Source: Vulcanimicrobiota bacterium
Lineage (GTDB): Bacteria > Vulcanimicrobiota > Vulcanimicrobiia > Vulcanimicrobiales > Vulcanimicrobiaceae
Reading direction: 5' to 3'
DNA length: 64,000 nucleotides
NCBI GenBank assembly: GCA_003151115.1
Contig: PLWS01000004.1
Coordinates: forward strand, 1 to 64,000
Shown here: positions 6,544 through 42,862 of the stretch, piece after piece
Position numbering within the stretch: position 1 is the stretch's first letter
How the letters are laid out: the number at the start of each line of letters is the position of its first letter
Notes under the pieces: generated by a model
Databases searched by the model: none
What the model was told of the DNA's origin: nothing
What the model saw: only the letters and a program-made list of their open reading frames with translations
Translations under genes and position numbers: made by a program

Positions 6544-6855
6544 TCACGAGTGACTCGCACGCGGGCATCTCAACCGAATCGAAGACTCTGAGAGCCGGTC
6601 GAAACCGGAGAGTTCCAACAGATTACGCACAAAAGGCCAATTCACGACGATTAACGCCGCTTCCAGCCCGCGATGCTCGCGGTGGTTGCGCAGCTCAAGT
6701 AATTCTGTCAGCAGCGTGTCCGTGACGTGCCGCGCACCCGCGAGGTTGATGAGGAGCTCCTTCGCGGTGTAAGCTGGTTCTAGTTGCCGATGCAATTCAT
6801 CCGGCCTGTACGAATCCCACGCGCCAGGCACAGAGATCATCATTGTGCGTTCCAT
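6544..6855 (-). CDS. STAS-domain protein (anti-sigma antagonist-like)
   Basis: A 103-residue protein whose core (AKELLINLAGARHVTDTLLTELLELRN, then AALIVVNWPFVRNLLELSGFDRL) follows the STAS beta-alpha pattern. The usual phosphoacceptor segment DSTGL is replaced by TDTLL, so the phosphorylatable serine is replaced or missing. The start at 6855 (MERTMM) is chosen at the beginning of the conserved part; 6843 is an alternative. It lies 58 bases downstream of the GH1 gene on the same strand and is probably co-transcribed. Partner unknown. Confidence 0.6.
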   Translation of the reverse strand: MERTMMISVPGAWDSYRPDELHRQLEPAYTAKELLINLAGARHVTDTLLTELLELRNHREHRGLEAALIVVNWPFVRNLLELSGFDRLSESSIRLRCPRASHS

Positions 6856-6913: not shown

Positions 6914-9064
6914 TTATTCAAAAACATGAAGGTCACTGCCTTGCGCGATGATTTGGGCATATCGCGCACTCGCTTCGGTTGGTACGCGTAAGAGGTTCGG
7001 ATCGCGATCGAGGTCGATGTGATATAAGCCAAAATCGCTGTTGTCGTCGAACGGAAGGCCCCATTCGCGATTCGATGTGATGCTCCAGCAAAGGTATGCT
7101 TTGATTGGAACGCCGCGGTGCAAGGCTCGTTCAACTTCGCGGATGTGCGCATTTAGGTAGTTGGCGCGCGAGAAACCATCAGCGCTGGTGACGCAGCCAT
7201 TCTCGATGACAATGATCGGCTTTCCCGGGAACTGCACTTGCGCTTCCCGCAGGATTGCATCGAGTACGTTGGGCCACACGGGCGCAGTTGCGTACCGGCA
7301 TTCGGCCGCCGCCGCCAAGCGATGCAACTCACCGGGCCAAAATGATGGGATTCCCCAATAATAATCCAGGCCAACGTAATCTAGTGCACCGATACATTGG
7401 GGCGGACAAAGGAACGGCGGAAGTTTTCCTGACATGCCCAGATTCCACCAATTCGTGCCAAGAAGTGTGCCGAACATTCCGAACGACTTACGGAAACCGT
7501 CGAGGAGTCCCAGCAGCGAGCGCGTGGCGCCGAGGCGGCGTTTGCCGCTTACGGGCACGAATCGTACTTTCGCATCGTCCGAGCGCAAAATATACTTGGC
7601 AATGCACCGCGCGAGATTGGGTTCTAGACCGCTGTAATCTCCCGCGCCGTCGGAGACGCACAAACCTTCGACACCTGGATGGATGCCGACGCGCAACACG
7701 CCGCGTTTGCGTATGGCTTGCAGCGACTTGTCGAGATCGGGGACCTCGTTGCTTGCGCCCAGTGCGTTGCCGGCAGAACGCGGCTTGCCGATGTCAGCGA
7801 TCGTCTTGCGATTGTGTGTCTGCGGAAGATTCGGATTGCCTTTCTTAAAGTCGCGCAGCGCGCGATCGACGGCGTTGAGTAAGGCTCGGCTCCCTAGCGC
7901 CATTGCCACCGCGAAGGGCTGATCGTTGCCGGGAAGCGGCGTCAGCTCGTATCCGGGTGAGACATACTGCTGCAACAGCACGTCGTCATCGAAAACGAGA
8001 TCGACCTTGCCGACGCGCAGGGCGTCGACGGCCGCGCTGATTTCAAGATAGAAGTTGAGGGCTGCGGCCGGAAAGCGTCCGCCGGCTTTAGCGGCGGCCG
8101 GCGTATCTTCGATTACAGCGACGCGTACCTTCCAGGTTTCCAGATCCTCGGGTACCGTCAACGACACTGCGTGCAAAGCGGCCAGGTGCGCAATGAAGTA
8201 TGGCTCCGAAAAGAGCGTATCGTCCATGCGCGCCTGCGTCATGGTCACTTGCGCGATCGAGATGTCGACAGCTCCGCTGTCCAGAATGAAGCTCTGCGAA
8301 AGCCGCCCCGCCTGACGCCGCGCCTGTTCAGGAGATTTGAGGTGTGTTGCATTGCGGTCCACTATGCGCTGCAACCAGCGCGGGAGCCCCAGAACCAGTG
8401 GATTGGCGCCAACCTTTGCGGCCGGTTGCGCGCTGCGGATCGCCGCTCGCGCTTGAGCGTGCGCGCGAAACAGATTTGGAATGAGGGTGAGCACCGCATC
8501 CATCTGTTGCTCCGACGTGGCAAATGGCTCCAAGCCGGGCGGCACGGGATAGTCGCGCATCCAGAAACCTTTGATGAAGCCGTAGACGAGTTGATTCGGC
8601 TCGTTTAACGTCACGTAATAATCGATGAGATCGCCCAACCGCTTCGCAACCTCCGATGCATACGCGCCCATCCGTGCAGGAAACGCAGCGTCTAGCATGC
8701 CGGCGCCATTGCCGGCGGCCTGCACGTGTAGTGGCCACGTGTTGTGGTGAAGCGTGACCACGGTCGTCATCTGCGCGTCACGCAGGTACTTCAGCACGTC
8801 ACGATAGTGCGCGAACGCTTCGTCGTTCCACGCGTTTGGCTCCGGTTCCAAGCGCGCCCACGCGAGCGAGAGCCGAAAGGCGCGGCATCCCAGATTCTTG
8901 GCGAGATCCACATCTTCGCGGTAGCGATTCCAAAAGTCGGTCGCGCGGCCTCGCGGCGTCAGGCCACGCACGCGCTCCCAGACGTCGCGGATATCGTCTT
9001 GCCCGGCGTACGCTTCGCATTGGTGATCTGCCGTAGCGACGCCAAACCGGAAGCTTTGTTGCAT
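6914..9064 (-). CDS. GH1 beta-glycosidase with inserted, circularly permuted SBP-type domain
   Basis: A 716-residue protein. Residues about 1-250 are the first half of a GH1 barrel: FRFGVATADHQ, TVVTLHHNTWP, and acid/base motif TLNEPN (Glu155). Residues about 516-716 are the second half: LDYVGLDYYWG, nucleophile motif VIENG (Glu621), and LCWSITSNREWGLP. Between them (about 253-508, bases 7517-8308) sits a domain resembling family-3 amino-acid-binding proteins with its halves swapped. First comes the normally distal part (SGAVDISIAQVTMTQARM, TLFSEPYF, VGKVDLVFDDDV). After a linker comes the normally N-terminal part (GVLRVGIHPG, GLEPNLARCIAKYIL, VRFVPVSG). No signal peptide is visible, so both domains should be cytoplasmic. 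The start ATG at 9064 is where GH1 similarity begins. Both catalytic glutamates are present. A divergent SDR gene lies 65 bases away. GH1 is certain; the permuted-insertion reading rests on motif order. Confidence 0.85.
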   Translation of the reverse strand: MQQSFRFGVATADHQCEAYAGQDDIRDVWERVRGLTPRGRATDFWNRYREDVDLAKNLGCRAFRLSLAWARLEPEPNAWNDEAFAHYRDVLKYLRDAQMTTVVTLHHNTWPLHVQAAGNGAGMLDAAFPARMGAYASEVAKRLGDLIDYYVTLNEPNQLVYGFIKGFWMRDYPVPPGLEPFATSEQQMDAVLTLIPNLFRAHAQARAAIRSAQPAAKVGANPLVLGLPRWLQRIVDRNATHLKSPEQARRQAGRLSQSFILDSGAVDISIAQVTMTQARMDDTLFSEPYFIAHLAALHAVSLTVPEDLETWKVRVAVIEDTPAAAKAGGRFPAAALNFYLEISAAVDALRVGKVDLVFDDDVLLQQYVSPGYELTPLPGNDQPFAVAMALGSRALLNAVDRALRDFKKGNPNLPQTHNRKTIADIGKPRSAGNALGASNEVPDLDKSLQAIRKRGVLRVGIHPGVEGLCVSDGAGDYSGLEPNLARCIAKYILRSDDAKVRFVPVSGKRRLGATRSLLGLLDGFRKSFGMFGTLLGTNWWNLGMSGKLPPFLCPPQCIGALDYVGLDYYWGIPSFWPGELHRLAAAAECRYATAPVWPNVLDAILREAQVQFPGKPIIVIENGCVTSADGFSRANYLNAHIREVERALHRGVPIKAYLCWSITSNREWGLPFDDNSDFGLYHIDLDRDPNLLRVPTEASARYAQIIAQGSDLHVFE

Positions 9065-9129
9065 AGCGACGGATGTTCGCCCCTTTGTGCGGCGGGACCA
9101 GCACGCGAGAGCCCGAACGCCACGCTGCA

Positions 9130-9861
9130 ATGAGATTCACCGGCAAGACGTGTGTCGTGACCGGCGGCGGCTCCGGAATTGGCCGCGCCACATGCGTGCG
9201 CATGGCGGCCGAGGGCGGTCGCGTTGTCGTCGCAGACCTTCATCAGGACGCCGCGCAGGCGACTGCAGATCAGATCACTTCGGCCGACGGCCAAGCTATC
9301 GCGGCGGAGTTGGATGTGGGAAATTCGGCACAAGTGCAAGCGACGATTGCAAAAGCGCTGGCAACGTATGGGTCCCTGGACGTTATCGTGAATGATGCGG
9401 CCATGATGACGTTTCAACCGATCGTCGATCTGGCGGAAGCGGATTTTCTCCATGTCATTGCGACGAACTTAGGATCCGTTTTTTATTTCTCGAAATACGG
9501 CGCGCCGCACATGCCGCCCGGCTCCGCGATCGTCAACATCAGCTCGGTGCATGCGCACGAAACGACGGCAAACGTGGTTCCCTACGCTGCATCGAAAGGT
9601 GCGATTGAGGCATTCACCCGCGGCTTCAGCATAGAGATGGAGTCGCGGAAGATCCGCGTAAACTGCGTGGCACCCGGAGCAGTAGACACGCCGATGCTTT
9701 GGAACAATCCCAACGTGAAGAGCGGCGCAGAAAAGGTCGAGGGCGCTATCGGCAAGCCCGAAGATTTGGCGGCCGCAATCTGCTTCATCGCATCGGAGGA
9801 CGCGAGTTTCATCAACGGCACGACTTTGGTAGTGGACGGCGGGCGATTAGATATTCTTTAG
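9130..9861 (+). CDS. Short-chain dehydrogenase/reductase
   Basis: A 243-residue classical SDR using NAD(P)H. Visible motifs are TGGGSGIG (residues 9-16, nucleotide binding), VNDAAM in place of NNAG, the serine in NISSVHA and the YAASK active-site Tyr/Lys, with the terminal FINGTTLVVDGG. Substrate cannot be read from sequence. Its divergent placement against the GH1 gene suggests oxidation of a released sugar, as in glucose 1-dehydrogenases, but this is inference. The ATG at 9130 starts the Rossmann strand directly. The gene stops 18 bases before att copy C, so with GH1 and STAS it fills exactly one inter-att segment. Confidence 0.85.
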   Translation: MRFTGKTCVVTGGGSGIGRATCVRMAAEGGRVVVADLHQDAAQATADQITSADGQAIAAELDVGNSAQVQATIAKALATYGSLDVIVNDAAMMTFQPIVDLAEADFLHVIATNLGSVFYFSKYGAPHMPPGSAIVNISSVHAHETTANVVPYAASKGAIEAFTRGFSIEMESRKIRVNCVAPGAVDTPMLWNNPNVKSGAEKVEGAIGKPEDLAAAICFIASEDASFINGTTLVVDGGRLDIL

Positions 9862-10848: not shown

Positions 10849-12711
10849 CTAGACTTCTTCTTGCTGAACGCTTCGCGCCGGGTTACCGAGCGTGTCGACG
10901 ACTTCGCGGAGAAGCCGCCGCTCGTGCGTAAGTAACGAGACTTTCGCCCGCAGTTCGTTGGCTTCGTTGAGCAGCGTTTTGCTGTGCACGTGTTCGTAGG
11001 CCGCGGCGGCGGCGCTCGATAAATGCGCGAGCGTATGCCGCTCGTCGGCATCGATCGCTTCTCCGCCGATGTGACCGCCGTAGAGTGCGAATCCTAAAAG
11101 CTCGTGGCGCACGACGAACGGCAGCGCGAGCAGCGGCTGCGCATAGCCGTGCGGAATCTTCGCGTGCGGCCAGCGAACGGCGGTGACGTCCATCGCTTCC
11201 AGTTCCGCAAGCAAGTTCACGACCAGATGATCGTCGCGCGTCAGGCGCAGCGTGTGATCGTCGTTCCATCCGATCGCCGCGGTCCGCTCGAATATCTCAT
11301 CGCCTTCTTTGCGGAAAACCGCAGCGGAAGCCAGCGCGAGCGCATCGCACGCCTCGACGGTCAAAACTTCATCGATGAAAGCCGGGCTCTCCGCGTGCAT
11401 CAGCGTTCGGCCGGCGCGATGAAGCCGCCGTTCGGCAAGATGCCGCCGCCGGAAGAGCACGGTGTCGATCAGGCGGTCGATGCGCGAGTGCAGCGCGTTG
11501 AGCCAAATACCGAACGCTAATGCAGCAACCGCTTCGATAACCACCGCGATCTGCAGCCGGTCCAAGACCTTCGATGAGAGAAAGTCGATCAGCACGAAGA
11601 CGCCGACGATCAGCGAGGTCAGCAGGGTGTAGACGAGCGTTCTGCTGATGACGAATGAAACGTCGACGACGCGATAGCGGACGATGCCGTATGCCACGGC
11701 AATGGCGATCATCAACAGCGCAAAATCCATCAAGCCGGTGAATAACGCGATGCCGATCTCACTGGTGTAGAGGAAGTTGTAGATGTTGTTGGCCAGTGTT
11801 GCAACGACGTAAAAGCTCAGCCAAAAAAGCACGGGCGCGATGCGCTGTCGGTCGCTTCCGCGGGACATGAAATACGCCGCCCCGAGCACGGCGAGCGAAA
11901 CCACCCCAATGACGGCCGAGGCGAGATACTGATAAGAAAACAGTAGCCACATCGGCGGAGGCGCGGACGAGAAAAGCAGAATGGCATTGATCGTCAGCGT
12001 CAGTGCCGCGACGAGTGCGCCGATCAGCGGAGCGCTGCGATCGACGGAGGCAAAGATGCCATGAGCGCGATCCGTCGGAAATCGGCTGACGAAGATCAAC
12101 AGTCCCGCGACCGAGATTCCGGTGAGCAATGCGTAGGCGCCATTCTGCAGAACGAAATCGGAAACACTAGTTTGCGCAAGGAACGGCGTCGTTCCCATAC
12201 CGAGCCCGTACGATACAAATGTAAGGACGAACGCCCAGGTCATGCGTGTTGGACGCAAGCGTACGAGCGCGATGCCAATCGCAATTACGACCGCTCCGAG
12301 CGCATAGTTCGCGATCTGTACGAGACGATAGAACGAGCCCCACAGCCGCGCAGCCAGGGTGGTATGAATCGTCTTCGATCCGCGCGTGATCGTGATGGGC
12401 ATCACCGTTCCGGCTTTTGCCGACATCGGAATCGCCAAGTTCGCGCGGCCCTCTAGCGGCAGCGTCTTCCAATCAATCCGATCGCCGACGCGAACGCCGC
12501 CCTTCGCCGCCGCTCCTCCGGGGGTTACATAGATGATCGTAGATCCATCCGGGCCCATGTTCCATCCGAAGATCGCGCCCACGGCCGTTGGAACGAACGC
12601 GGCATAAAGGACCCATCCCAGCGCCCATAAAGCGATGATGGCGAGAACGAACGTGCGCGCAACGGCTCGGAAAGCCGTCTGCTCGCGCGCACGCACGGGC
12701 ATAACGCTCAT
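10849..12711 (-). CDS. PDZ-membrane-GAF sensor-like protein (paralogue 1)
   Basis: A 620-residue membrane protein. A first helix (about 20-42) is followed by an extracytoplasmic PDZ-like domain (about 45-125; VTPGGAAAKGGVRVGDRI), then six to seven helices (about 130-385). The hinge RYRVVDVSFVISRTLVYTLL follows, then a cytoplasmic GAF-like domain (about 430-590) with a C-terminal coiled-coil. No histidine kinase, GGDEF or phosphatase domain follows, so output is unknown. It occupies alone the segment between att copies D and E. Two paralogues with the same order of parts follow on the other side of copy E. Confidence 0.75.
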   Translation of the reverse strand: MSVMPVRAREQTAFRAVARTFVLAIIALWALGWVLYAAFVPTAVGAIFGWNMGPDGSTIIYVTPGGAAAKGGVRVGDRIDWKTLPLEGRANLAIPMSAKAGTVMPITITRGSKTIHTTLAARLWGSFYRLVQIANYALGAVVIAIGIALVRLRPTRMTWAFVLTFVSYGLGMGTTPFLAQTSVSDFVLQNGAYALLTGISVAGLLIFVSRFPTDRAHGIFASVDRSAPLIGALVAALTLTINAILLFSSAPPPMWLLFSYQYLASAVIGVVSLAVLGAAYFMSRGSDRQRIAPVLFWLSFYVVATLANNIYNFLYTSEIGIALFTGLMDFALLMIAIAVAYGIVRYRVVDVSFVISRTLVYTLLTSLIVGVFVLIDFLSSKVLDRLQIAVVIEAVAALAFGIWLNALHSRIDRLIDTVLFRRRHLAERRLHRAGRTLMHAESPAFIDEVLTVEACDALALASAAVFRKEGDEIFERTAAIGWNDDHTLRLTRDDHLVVNLLAELEAMDVTAVRWPHAKIPHGYAQPLLALPFVVRHELLGFALYGGHIGGEAIDADERHTLAHLSSAAAAAYEHVHSKTLLNEANELRAKVSLLTHERRLLREVVDTLGNPARSVQQEEV

Positions 12712-12753
12712 CCGTGCTACTCCTCTGCCGCGCTATTCTCCCGATCTATTTTT

Positions 12754-12770
12754 AGTCATCCTGAGGCCCT
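12754..12770 (-). repeat. Truncated dispersed repeat (TCAGGATGAC end)
   Basis: GTCATCCTGAGGCCCTTCTG, the inverted end of the genome's dispersed palindromic repeat, directly adjoining the arm-like motif of att copy E. Confidence 0.45.
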
Positions 12771-12773
12771 TCT

Positions 12774-12825
12774 GTCAAAAACCCTTATAGAATCGGACCT
12801 AATTTTGTAGCCCCAACGGGATTCG
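12774..12825 (-). repeat. tRNA-Glu 3'-end copy E with arm-like motif
   Basis: GTCAAAAACCCTTATAG (12774-12790) followed by a 17-18 base tRNA-Glu-end copy (12808-12825, shortened to ...GATTCG). The left flank closely matches that of copy B, so B and E look like the same end of related elements. Confidence 0.65.
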
Positions 12826-12886
12826 GATGCGTTGTTGACTGACGAACGGTGGCAACTCAGACCCACTCCGGCCCACAAAATACGCT

Positions 12887-14614
12887 TCAGGTGTGATTAT
12901 CGCGCTGAAGCAAAACATATGAGGCTGTTCCAACGCGATGTGCGACAAGCGCGAGGGCTTCAATCTCTTCATTCAAATAGTGCATGCGCTCGCGTTTGGG
13001 TCCGCACACCAACACGCCGAGCAACGATCCTCCGATGGTCATGGGGAGCATCAGTGCCTCACTAAGGGCGTGTTCGCCGGGCTTCATTTCGAACGGCTCA
13101 TTCCAGCGCCGTAAGCGAACGATTGCGGGGTCGTCCTGTCCTAACGCGAGCGGCGGCGAATTATCTGAGCTCCGTACCCGATGATAGCCACCATTCTCCG
13201 ACATATAGATGGCGGCATACCGGCCTTCGATGTTCTCGCGCAAAGAGTCGCAGGCGAGCGTCAAGAGCGACGCCAAATTCGTCACGACATCTGCCTCAAG
13301 CGCAAAACGCCGCACTTCGGCTAGCGCCTGAGCCCGTCTACCGAAGAAAACAGAGTTCAGCCACCGTTCGACGAGTCTAAGAATTGGAACCGCCGATAGA
13401 CCGACGCCGACTGCTACCGCTAGACGCAATGCTTGCCCGGCAATTCCGTTGGCAGCTTCTGCGCCGACACCGCGGTCTAAAACCTGTCCGAGCGTCCATT
13501 CGAGCGCCACGACCAGCACAACAACGGCCACCGACACGAGCGCAAAGATGGCCGCGCGGCTCACCACAATGCTCACGTCGATGATCCGGTGACGCAAAAT
13601 CGCGTAGGCGATCAACAAGAGCGCCACATCGCCGACGATTCCGAGCCAGGTGACGAGCGGGGGCGCATTTGAACCAGTTAGCACGTAAGCCGCCACGTAG
13701 AACTGCGGCATCGTTGCAATGATCAGCGCGATGCCCACCCAGCGCATTTGAATGCGGTGCTCTTCATCGACGTGCATGAGTCCGTCGATCGCCGCGACTA
13801 GAACCAACAGCGGGACGAGGAGCAGCGAAAGGAGGCCACGGATCCAAGCATATGAAGGCGCGCCTGCGATTTGAAAGATCTGCCAATTCGCGTGCCATAC
13901 TGCCGCGCCGCCCCATAAGCTGAGGAGCACCATCAGCACAGCAATTGGCAACGCACCCCGAGCGATTGCGGACCGAAGGCGCGATCTCACTGGCGGAAAG
14001 TGACCGACGAAGGTCAGCAAGCAATATGCCACGACTACTTGGACGATGCCGAGCGCAGCGGGACCCTGTGACCCTCCGATCGCTCCGATGAACGCTAGCG
14101 CCGGCGTCGGCGCCACATTGAAAAACCATGACAGCGCGTCCGCCCATGCCCACGCAATAAAGAGCAAAGCCAGAGCCCGCACTTCCGTTCGCGCGGCGCC
14201 ACGTAGTGCGACAAGTGTTCCGGTCGCAGCAAAAATAAAGAGCAACAGCAGCTCTAACGGTCCGAACTCAACCGGCCTGTAGTTCTCCGTTGTTCCCGCG
14301 GTGATTTGAAAGTCTAATCGTTTGCCGTTGCGCAATATGGGCAGGGCAAGTTTTTGACCGGCCCGCCGCATATTCAGGTTGAACTGTTGGCTTGGCGACA
14401 GGGCGTCGAATAACAGGATATCATCCTTCCGGATGCCCGCCTTGTCTGCAGACGCACCAGGATACACTCGCGCGAAGATCTGGTTGCCGCTCGCGAGCGA
14501 CGTCCCGTCGTAACCAATTTGCCCTGGTCGATACGGATTCGCGACATTGTAACAGCCCAAAGCAACTGCGCCCAGGGCCAGTAGAATGATCGTAATTCGA
14601 AATCTTTCGCTCAT
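12887..14614 (-). CDS. PDZ-membrane-GAF sensor-like protein (paralogue 2)
   Basis: A 575-residue protein with the same plan as its neighbours: N-terminal helix, PDZ-like domain (VYPGASADKAGIRKDDILLF, residues about 48-68), a membrane bundle (about 110-360), the hinge RHRIIDVSIVVSRAAIF, a second pair of hydrophobic segments and a GAF-like domain (about 425-570). It lacks any recognisable kinase or cyclase output. The start at 14614 (MSERF) is preferred over the frame extension to 14656. It diverges from paralogue 3, sharing the 14615-14767 control region. Confidence 0.75.
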   Translation of the reverse strand: MSERFRITIILLALGAVALGCYNVANPYRPGQIGYDGTSLASGNQIFARVYPGASADKAGIRKDDILLFDALSPSQQFNLNMRRAGQKLALPILRNGKRLDFQITAGTTENYRPVEFGPLELLLLFIFAATGTLVALRGAARTEVRALALLFIAWAWADALSWFFNVAPTPALAFIGAIGGSQGPAALGIVQVVVAYCLLTFVGHFPPVRSRLRSAIARGALPIAVLMVLLSLWGGAAVWHANWQIFQIAGAPSYAWIRGLLSLLLVPLLVLVAAIDGLMHVDEEHRIQMRWVGIALIIATMPQFYVAAYVLTGSNAPPLVTWLGIVGDVALLLIAYAILRHRIIDVSIVVSRAAIFALVSVAVVVLVVALEWTLGQVLDRGVGAEAANGIAGQALRLAVAVGVGLSAVPILRLVERWLNSVFFGRRAQALAEVRRFALEADVVTNLASLLTLACDSLRENIEGRYAAIYMSENGGYHRVRSSDNSPPLALGQDDPAIVRLRRWNEPFEMKPGEHALSEALMLPMTIGGSLLGVLVCGPKRERMHYLNEEIEALALVAHRVGTASYVLLQRDNHT

Positions 14615-14767
14615 ATAATAATCACCCGACGCGTTACAAGCGCCGCGCCAAGCCAACGCGCTTCTTGCCCGCTACGGAAAGACCTTGGTAGCCACTCAAA
14701 GGCCCGCATGCACCTCGGGGGGAAGCGCATCGTTCTTGACGGCCTTTTTTAAAAGCGTGCGGCGTTT

Positions 14768-16489
14768 ATGACAGCTCTGCGTGCGTTCGTCTCGATCGGG
14801 CTGGCCGCGTTTTGGCTGCTGCTGGTCGCGCCGCCCATGTTTCAAACGCCGCAAAGTGTCTACACCGGAACACATATCGTGCTCACCGGGGCGCCCGTGC
14901 AGCCAAACATCATACGCGTAGACCCCGGTTCGCCGGCATACCGGGCGGGACTGCGGACCGGAGACGTGCTGGGATGCCTTTCCCCGCGCGATGCTGCTCT
15001 GCTTATTCCGATTGGTGCGCCGAACGCGTATCGAGCGGGCATGCCGATCTCGACGTGCGTCCACCGCAACGGCGTATTGCATCGCGTGAACTTCGTTGCG
15101 CAGACGGGTCCGCGAATTGAGAATACCTACGGATCCGTTGCGCTGGCGGCGCTGCGCCTTTGCGTCGTCATAGTGTTTTTCTTAACCGGGATCGCTCTGG
15201 TGATGTCCAGGCCCAGTCTGATGACCTGGATCTTTTATGCATATTGTTTAGGAAGCGCTCCGTCATTTGCCGCCGGCACGAATTGGACGGTGCTTCCGGC
15301 GTGGGAATACGCGATCGCTTCGGGCATACCCGGCCTCGGCTCGGGAACTGCCGTCGCATTTTTATTGCTCTTTGCTGTCTTAGTTCCGAACGATCGAGCT
15401 GCGTCGGGCTGGAGGCGCAACGCGTTCTTAATCGCGTGCGCCGTCGCATTTGCCGACGTGCTGCTCGTCGCAGCAAACGTCTTTTATACGGGAGTGGTAC
15501 TGGGTCCGTCGTTTTCCAACGGCGTGGATGAGGCGCTTACGATCGTCACGGTACTTGTTGTGCTGACGCGTCTTGCAACGATGGAGCGTGACGAACGCGC
15601 ACGCTTCGGGTGGGCAGCCTTCGCGATTATTTTTGGCGTTGTTGCAAACGATTTGCGCAACGTGTTGTCCGTCGGATCCTTTAGCTCGTTAAGCGTGGTG
15701 GCCGCCGACCTCACGGTAGTCATGCCGCTCTGCTTGATGTACGCGATTCTCAAGCGCCATGTGATCGACGTTCGGTTCGTGATTAGCCGGACGGTCGTGT
15801 ACGCGGCGCTCACAACGGTGGTCGTGCTCGTCATCGGCGTCGTGGACTGGGTGACGAGCGCATATCTGACTCAGGTTCGCGTTGCGATGGCGATCGATGC
15901 GGCGGTCACGGTAGGTGTCGCATTCACATTACATCGCGCGTATCGTTGGGTAGAAAACGTCGTCGATTCCCTGCTGTTTCGCCGCAAACATCAAGCGCAA
16001 GCCTACCTGAACAGGCTGGGAAGGACCCTGCTGCGCGCCGAGAGAGAAGACACGATCGACCGTGCGTTAGTGCACGCACCGTACGAGAGGCTCGAAATTC
16101 AGGTGGCGGCGCTTTTTCGTGCGCAAGGCCGCGCGTTCGTTATGTCGGACGTGGCCGGCTCGAACGTGGTTGGCGATTCGCTCTTCGACACCGAGCACGA
16201 GCTCGTTCGATTCCTTGCGACGGAGCGCACGAAGGTCGATATTCGCGATCTTCGTACGCACTTTGTCGAGCAGCCCGAAGCGGATGGTGGACCGGCCGTT
16301 GCGATTCCGATATTTCAGGGCGACGAGCTCACGGCGTTTGCCGTGTACGGCATTCATCGCGACGGCACAAAACTGGACCCGGATGAAATCGAGACGTTGG
16401 AGCATTTGTGCGAGACGGCAGCGCAGGCGTACGTGCGCATCGAGCTGTTGCGCTATCGAACGGACGCGCCGGCGCCAGCCCTTGCATAG
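14768..16489 (+). CDS. PDZ-membrane-GAF sensor-like protein (paralogue 3)
   Basis: A 573-residue protein. N-terminal helix, PDZ-like domain (VDPGSPAYRAGLRTGDVLG), membrane bundle (about 120-360), the family hinge KRHVIDVRFVISRTVVYAAL, two more hydrophobic segments and a GAF-like domain (about 420-565) ending in a polar tail. As with the other two copies there is no catalytic output domain. ATG at 14768 with GCGGCG-type leader only; the start is placed by the hydrophobic N-terminus. It ends shortly before the terminator that faces the tRNA genes. Confidence 0.75.
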   Translation: MTALRAFVSIGLAAFWLLLVAPPMFQTPQSVYTGTHIVLTGAPVQPNIIRVDPGSPAYRAGLRTGDVLGCLSPRDAALLIPIGAPNAYRAGMPISTCVHRNGVLHRVNFVAQTGPRIENTYGSVALAALRLCVVIVFFLTGIALVMSRPSLMTWIFYAYCLGSAPSFAAGTNWTVLPAWEYAIASGIPGLGSGTAVAFLLLFAVLVPNDRAASGWRRNAFLIACAVAFADVLLVAANVFYTGVVLGPSFSNGVDEALTIVTVLVVLTRLATMERDERARFGWAAFAIIFGVVANDLRNVLSVGSFSSLSVVAADLTVVMPLCLMYAILKRHVIDVRFVISRTVVYAALTTVVVLVIGVVDWVTSAYLTQVRVAMAIDAAVTVGVAFTLHRAYRWVENVVDSLLFRRKHQAQAYLNRLGRTLLRAEREDTIDRALVHAPYERLEIQVAALFRAQGRAFVMSDVAGSNVVGDSLFDTEHELVRFLATERTKVDIRDLRTHFVEQPEADGGPAVAIPIFQGDELTAFAVYGIHRDGTKLDPDEIETLEHLCETAAQAYVRIELLRYRTDAPAPALA

Positions 16490-18880: not shown

Positions 18881-18970
18881 CCCTCGATTGGCTCGCTGCG
18901 CTCGCTCCCTTCGACTCGCTTCGCTCGCTCAGGACTTCGACGGTCCTTCGACAAACTCAGGATGACAACG
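18881..18970 (+). repeat. Dispersed palindromic repeat, copy 1
   Basis: Contains CTCGCTGCGCTCGCT, CTCGCTTCGCTCGCTCAGG and ends CAAACTCAGGATGACA, with strong internal inverted repeats. It sits between the VOC and YceI genes. Related copies occur near 19916, 27676, 33035, 42797, 51209, 59548 and 63384. Confidence 0.75.
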
Positions 18971-19915: not shown

Positions 19916-20010
19916 ACCTCGCCCTTCGACTGACGCGCCTACGGCGCGTTGCTCAGGGTGGTTCGACAGGCTCACCATGACACTGTAGCGCCGCTCACCA
20001 TGACACCGGT
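19916..20010 (+). repeat. Dispersed palindromic repeat, copy 2
   Basis: CCTCGCCCTTCGACTGACGC, the palindrome GCGCCTACGGCGC, then GGCTCACCATGACA repeated as GCTCACCATGACACC. Variant form ending ACCATGACA instead of AGGATGACA. It separates convergent genes. Confidence 0.7.
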
Positions 20011-42796: not shown

Positions 42797-42862
42797 TGCG
42801 CCCCTCGTCATGTGCGCTTCGCGCACTGCTCGGGGTCCTTCGACAAGCTCAGGATGACAATA
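42797..42862 (+). repeat. Dispersed palindromic repeat, copy 5
   Basis: GTGCGCTTCGCGCAC hairpin, TGCTCGGGGTCCTTCGACAAG and CTCAGGATGACA. The inverted form of its middle, GACCCCGAGCAGTGCGCG, recurs exactly within purL at 51232-51250. Confidence 0.75.

Follow-up and report, generated by a model that had tools for sequence, protein, structure and literature searches.

Can a glycosidase barrel that is interrupted by a binding-protein domain, with the parts of that domain in swapped order, be a genuine enzyme, and what might the inserted domain do for it? This question is raised by a gene on the minus strand at 6914-9064 of the 64,000-nucleotide stretch of contig PLWS01000004.1 analysed here (Vulcanimicrobiota bacterium, GCA_003151115.1; hereafter the window), which encodes 716 amino acids plus a stop codon and is kept at full length in relatives. 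A preliminary description had proposed a glycoside hydrolase family 1 (GH1) barrel split by a circularly permuted family-3 solute-binding protein (SBP) domain. Its coordinates, product length and numbering of the two catalytic glutamates, Glu155 and Glu621, were correct on re-reading of the sequence, and profile matching, an un-permutation test, structure prediction and conservation now agree on the split barrel. No signal peptide is visible by eye in the 716-residue product, as had been stated, and the GH1 domain begins at residue 3.

The enzyme half of the architecture was readily recognised. Glyco_hydro_1 (PF00232) matched the product in two stretches with 140.6 bits against a cut-off of 22.6 (6.9e-41). 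The N-terminal half (8345-9064, minus strand; residues 1-240, PF00232 on residues 3-221) holds barrel strands 1-5 and the acid/base Glu155 (codon 8600-8602), and the C-terminal half (6914-7528, minus strand; residues 513-716), which carries the second PF00232 stretch, holds strands 6-8 and the nucleophile Glu621 (codon 7202-7204). The acid/base, in an NEP motif after strand 4, was found in 42 of 43 family members, and the nucleophile, in an ENG motif after strand 7, in all 43. Ten catalytic and sugar-subsite residues (Q15, H107, N154, E155, Y569, E621, W660, E667, W668 and F678) are kept in essentially all family members, and nearly all of 7 unrelated standalone GH1s have the same ten. The barrel, the two glutamates and most sugar-subsite residues are shared with the beta-glucosidases BGL167 (4r27), 1vff and Thermotoga maritima BglA (1od0/1w3j). 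In contrast to the family, standalone GH1s have no SBP insertion, and two subsite residues are specific to proteins with the permuted SBP: Asn108, where most GH1s have Trp (Trp or Phe being usual), and Asp567, where Asn is usual. By its residues, the 716-residue protein looks like a catalytically competent, cytosolic GH1 beta-glycosidase.

Between barrel strands 5 and 6 lies an SBP_bac_3 domain in circularly permuted order. In the Pfam scan that the preliminary description had proposed, SBP_bac_3 (PF00497) was matched alongside Glyco_hydro_1 and with its parts reversed: residues 261-408 correspond to profile positions 54-118 (9.9e-8; 32.3 bits against a cut-off of 26.4), while the N-terminal part of the profile, positions 1-54, is matched by a later stretch of the product. 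Profile positions 54-118 thus stand ahead of 1-54, a permuted variant of the canonical N-to-C order of family 3. NCBIfam concurs, with the later part of amino-acid-binding models on residues 261-409 and their first part on 441-510. For an un-permutation test, the SBP halves of the insert were re-joined in canonical order and rescored with the Pfam model. In native order the insert gave 34.8 bits, with a partial best stretch (profile 54-118), whereas the rewritten insert gave 44.7 bits in a single stretch over positions 1-118 of 132. A profile built from 33 inserts matched solved structures of AncCDT-1 (1.3e-31), AncQR (6e-31) and the Enterococcus faecium glutamate-binding protein (1.3e-30); many of its amino-acid-binding matches were split into two stretches, and the AncCDT-1 alignment was in swapped order. 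Chance similarity of the insert to SBPs is ruled out by this profile, the un-permuted score and Foldseek.

The predicted structure assigns each of these parts to a fold. An AlphaFold model built with a 41-member alignment reached a mean pLDDT of 86.5 and a pTM of 0.88 for the whole protein, and it combines a confident TIM barrel with a folded, bilobed insert, the outcome that the preliminary description had looked for in a structure prediction. Only two segments, residues 432-438 and the last five residues, fell below a pLDDT of 50, and the insert folded alone had a pLDDT of 83. With the whole model as query, the best 50 Foldseek matches listed were all GH1-type glycosidases (E down to 1.5e-18), the barrel resembling beta-glucosidases. 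The insert alone was aligned by Foldseek to binding proteins for glutamate, arginine and glutamine; the alignments spanned about 153-160 residues, mostly at 2.2-3.1 Å, an overlap that roughly corresponds to the part still collinear despite the permutation.

Lobe 1 is built of three pieces in the predicted secondary structure, all on the minus strand. The first (8189-8308; residues 253-292) is the canonical SBP middle, matched by the SBP_bac_3 profile from position 54, with the ligand-type Arg279 (codon 8228-8230). The second (7835-7924; residues 381-410) comprises the return hinge strand and the canonical C-terminal helix (strand 382-389, helix 393-408), and the third (7541-7732; residues 445-508) is the canonical N-terminus (IRKRGVLRVGI...GLEPNLA...VRFVPV), matched by profile positions 1-54 and by the profile search of solved structures. 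Lobe 2 (7925-8188, minus strand; residues 293-380), which several relatives do not have, carries Asp360 (codon 7985-7987); in the model, strands and helices alternate along it (residues about 294-381), and hinge strands 283-292 and 382-389 flank it. A variable permutation linker (7733-7834, minus strand; residues 411-444), which includes the low-pLDDT segment 432-438 and has a mean pairwise identity of 35%, leads from the canonical SBP C-terminus to the N-terminus. By alignment to standalone GH1s, the insert enters after barrel strand 5 (AKVGANP) and ends before strand 6 (LDYVGLDYY). Since the segment following it (GFRKSFGMFGTLLGTNWWNLGMSGKLPPF) is similar to the usual GH1 helix 5, we infer from sequence that this segment is helix 5 and that the insert occupies the beta5-alpha5 loop of the catalytic face; an insertion after beta-strand 5 should face the active site.

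We looked for the same plan in other genomes. Of the phylum's 149 genomes, 52 carried the homologous gene (34 of the 85 of good quality), and every carrier belonged to families f1-f3 of a single class. When about 85,000 species genomes were scanned for close relatives, 34 loci were recovered, all in metagenome-assembled genomes whose titles read Candidatus Eremiobacterota or just bacterium; more distant relatives may occur beyond the class. The bearers of the architecture are uncultured soil bacteria. Both Pfam models matched in 41 of 41 aligned relatives, so that the homologue search suggested at the outset recovered the same insertion throughout. An assembly or frameshift artefact might be thought of for a gene whose relatives come from metagenome-assembled genomes, and nothing was found in support of it; the same permuted plan stands in in-frame, full-length ORFs of independent assemblies from many projects and the divergence between relatives is dominated by synonymous changes, which makes such an artefact extremely improbable. 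In no plasmid was 80% of the query covered at one place; the matches were ordinary GH1 genes, and the best standalone GH1s seen in that search were only about 30-38% identical. No relative of the insert was found in viral contigs. In the window's genome, this gene is the sole GH1, and a search for standalone SBP_bac_3 proteins found none, though it also missed the permuted insert and degenerate copies could escape it. A second gene copy was observed in one genome (L108 in G071); its first part shares about 59% identity with the window protein, and it has a stop codon inside the matched stretch.

The gene has a conserved neighbour. A short-chain dehydrogenase (9130-9861, plus strand) is divergently oriented to it across a 65-bp intergenic region (9065-9129, no strand) common to both genes; the curated models closest to it, SDR oxidoreductase and glucose 1-dehydrogenase, were matched below their cut-offs. 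In 26 of 34 loci such a dehydrogenase is encoded on the opposite strand, with its start 42-98 bp away from the GH1 match; in 3 further loci it is found 1-2 kb upstream, and 2 loci end too near to tell. Hydrolysis by the GH1 enzyme followed by oxidation of the freed sugar by the adjoining dehydrogenase is a reasonable but unproven pairing. On the other side, 58 bp downstream of the GH1 gene and on the same strand, a small STAS-domain protein (6544-6855, minus strand; weak Pfam match below cut-off) is possibly co-transcribed with it. Elsewhere in the window, 10849-16489 encodes three neighbouring membrane proteins with multiple helices and much the same layout, a PDZ-like N-terminus and a GAF-like C-terminus; Pfam matches in them are few or absent, and a kinase domain was not recognisable.

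Sequence comparison shows how strongly each part is maintained. Among close pairs, dN/dS was below 1 in every region where it was computable: the GH1 parts had values of about 0.01-0.12, lobe 2 of 0.07-0.45, and lobe 1 mostly of 0-0.3 with a maximum of 0.55. Among the long forms (those with lobe 2, n=34), the two GH1 halves had mean pairwise identities of 75% and 71%, lobe 1 of 52-57% and lobe 2 of 40%. Every folded part is under constraint, lobe 2 least. In-frame, low-complexity expansions were seen in the lobe-1 loop after the GLC motif in L044, L070 and L109, and, by a look at the sequence, in L037 and L041; those in the first three contain TTCGACAAGCTCAGGATGAC and look like a translated palindromic repeat of intergenic type, which the window also contains at 18947, at 42839 and, in weaker form, at 19962.

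Several positions of the insert suggest a ligand site. By the textbook contacts of lysine/arginine/ornithine-binding protein, we take Arg279 to correspond to the carboxylate-binding Arg, Asp360 to the amine-binding Asp and residue 462 to the acidic Asp11 of that protein. By sequence, the family-3 ligand-type Arg in lobe 1 and Asp in lobe 2 are both present: all 34 long forms have Arg279, and 31 of them have the Asp360 equivalent, which is replaced by T, A and L in L004, L005 and L007. Residue 462 is usually His, in others Arg or Lys, which hints, speculatively, at an acidic side chain on the ligand. We infer from these residues that the insert binds an amino-acid-like ligand.

Gating of the glycosidase by a ligand in the inserted domain is plausible, and that an amino-acid-like ligand tunes the enzyme in the long forms is the reading we favour, though we place it slightly below an even chance. 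An amino-acid-like cytosolic ligand, its carboxylate on Arg279 and its amine on Asp360, would close the two lobes. Since the chain enters and leaves lobe 1 at adjacent points, through the permuted termini, closure would shift the strand-5 loop and helix 5 at the mouth of the active site and so tune activity. The sugar set free would probably be oxidised by the adjoining dehydrogenase. Relatives lacking lobe 2 would no longer have the switch, and their enzyme would be constitutive. The near-universal ligand-type residues of the long forms, the purifying selection on the insert and the insertion after beta-strand 5 are consistent with such gating, as are the pairing of both domains in every aligned relative, the Foldseek assignments of barrel and insert, the conserved catalytic residues and the recurrent dehydrogenase. 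Against it stand the low conservation of lobe 2, the weakest of all folded parts (40% identity, compared with 71-75% in GH1), the loss of the Asp360 position in the three long forms named above, and the history of lobe 2.

That history, on which the preliminary description was silent, emerged from the relatives. Nine distinct relatives have no lobe 2 and retain lobe 1 (short forms, n=9), and in them two lobes joined by two hinge strands, the family-3 layout seen in the 716-residue protein, are not found: the chain runs from FS(E/K/Q)PY nearly straight into (Y)AVA(M/V)ALG, that is, from hinge strand to hinge strand. On an unrooted tree of the GH1 parts, presence and absence of lobe 2 required 4 changes, and a single loss, with the short forms as one clade, was rejected (approximately unbiased test, p = 0.001). 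An outgroup-rooted tree also gave 4 changes (3-4 in bootstraps), with poorly resolved deep forks and well-supported branches that alone force at most 1. Since regain of a homologous lobe 2 is unlikely, lobe 2 is best read as having been lost repeatedly, about 3-4 times, precisely at the hinge strands. Thus flytrap closure cannot be universally required, and that it is dispensable, with enzyme and lobe 1 kept after each loss, counts against gating as a universal mechanism. Arg279 persists in 8 of 9 short forms and is lost in L093; the pocket loop at about 462-469 is shortened or altered in several short forms, which favours the gating reading. Loss of His462 in short forms was considered as proof of a relaxed pocket and rejected, as deep-branching long forms differ at this position too. 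One short form (L106 in G116), whose gene contains masked bases, has Ala for the acid/base Glu (NAP instead of NEP); the enzyme may be inactive, or the sequence may contain an error.

The loss of lobe 2 favours two other explanations. Lobe 1 may help to build the aglycone (leaving-group) site over the barrel, where Arg279 and its neighbours would bind a carboxylate-bearing glycoside, with lobe 2 as an optional element that widens or narrows specificity. Lobe 1 is indeed present in every member, even where lobe 2 has been excised, Arg279 outlasts lobe 2 in all short forms except L093, and the insertion point is at the catalytic-face end of strand 5. However, L093 does without Arg279, and most long forms keep the Asp360 equivalent in lobe 2, which is expected of a closed-cleft ligand and not of a lid; we regard this explanation as rather unlikely. 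Alternatively, the insert may be a former sensor that now serves mainly folding or stability and is being taken apart step by step, beginning with lobe 2. Repeated loss of lobe 2, the higher dN/dS and lower identity of the insert, and the low-complexity loop expansions in five relatives would suit such decay, but lobe 2 is under purifying selection in the long forms and their ligand-type residues are nearly universal, and we consider it unlikely too, slightly more so than the lid.

The case for ligand gating in the long forms is drawn from geometry and from precedents, one natural and one engineered. The insert shares its bilobed fold, the carboxylate-type Arg and mostly the amine-type Asp with family-3 amino-acid SBPs (the glutamate-binding protein 5eyf, AncCDT-1, AncQR, GlnBP and LAO-binding protein). 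Unlike those proteins, which are exported and feed ABC transporters, it lies inside an enzyme with no signal peptide visible by eye and is cytosolic by sequence, circularly permuted and deprived of lobe 2 in some lineages. The lytic transglycosylase MltF, whose SBP domain (6hqh) was among the matches of the insert profile, is likewise a natural sugar-cleaving enzyme with a family-3 SBP-like domain, and muropeptides engaging this N-terminal domain trigger a switch to the active form (PMC10746161). In MltF, however, the SBP domain is N-terminal and unpermuted, the catalytic domain is unrelated and the protein is membrane-bound outside the cytoplasm. In the engineered XynA-XBP271, an insertion of xylanase and xylose-binding protein, xylose raises activity (PMC4896006), and this and related insertion switches (PMC6335823) also combine a glycosidase with a binding protein so that ligand alters catalysis. 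Those constructs are man-made with the enzyme inside the binding protein, whereas here a permuted binding protein has evolved inside the enzyme. The preliminary description knew of no enzyme of this plan, and we likewise found no description of a natural GH1/SBP insertion in the open-access literature, only engineered analogues. Each half belongs to a known family; what is new, as far as that literature goes, is a cytosolic, circularly permuted SBP inside a GH1 barrel that is kept through a bacterial class.

Protein engineers build switchable enzymes by domain insertion, often permuting the insert so that its ends meet, and the GH1/SBP family appears to be a natural instance of this design. 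Tentatively, and with slightly more doubt than we attach to ligand tuning itself, we propose a class-wide natural allosteric glycosidase, in which a permuted Venus-flytrap amino-acid sensor resides in a TIM barrel and switch-off derivatives have arisen through repeated, exact excision of lobe 2 at the hinge. Related species with long and independently truncated forms make the origin and loss of domain-insertion allostery testable on existing sequences. The family also offers a case of a flytrap receptor domain employed within a cytosolic metabolic enzyme, and the window's genome seemingly has no conventional SBP_bac_3 protein.
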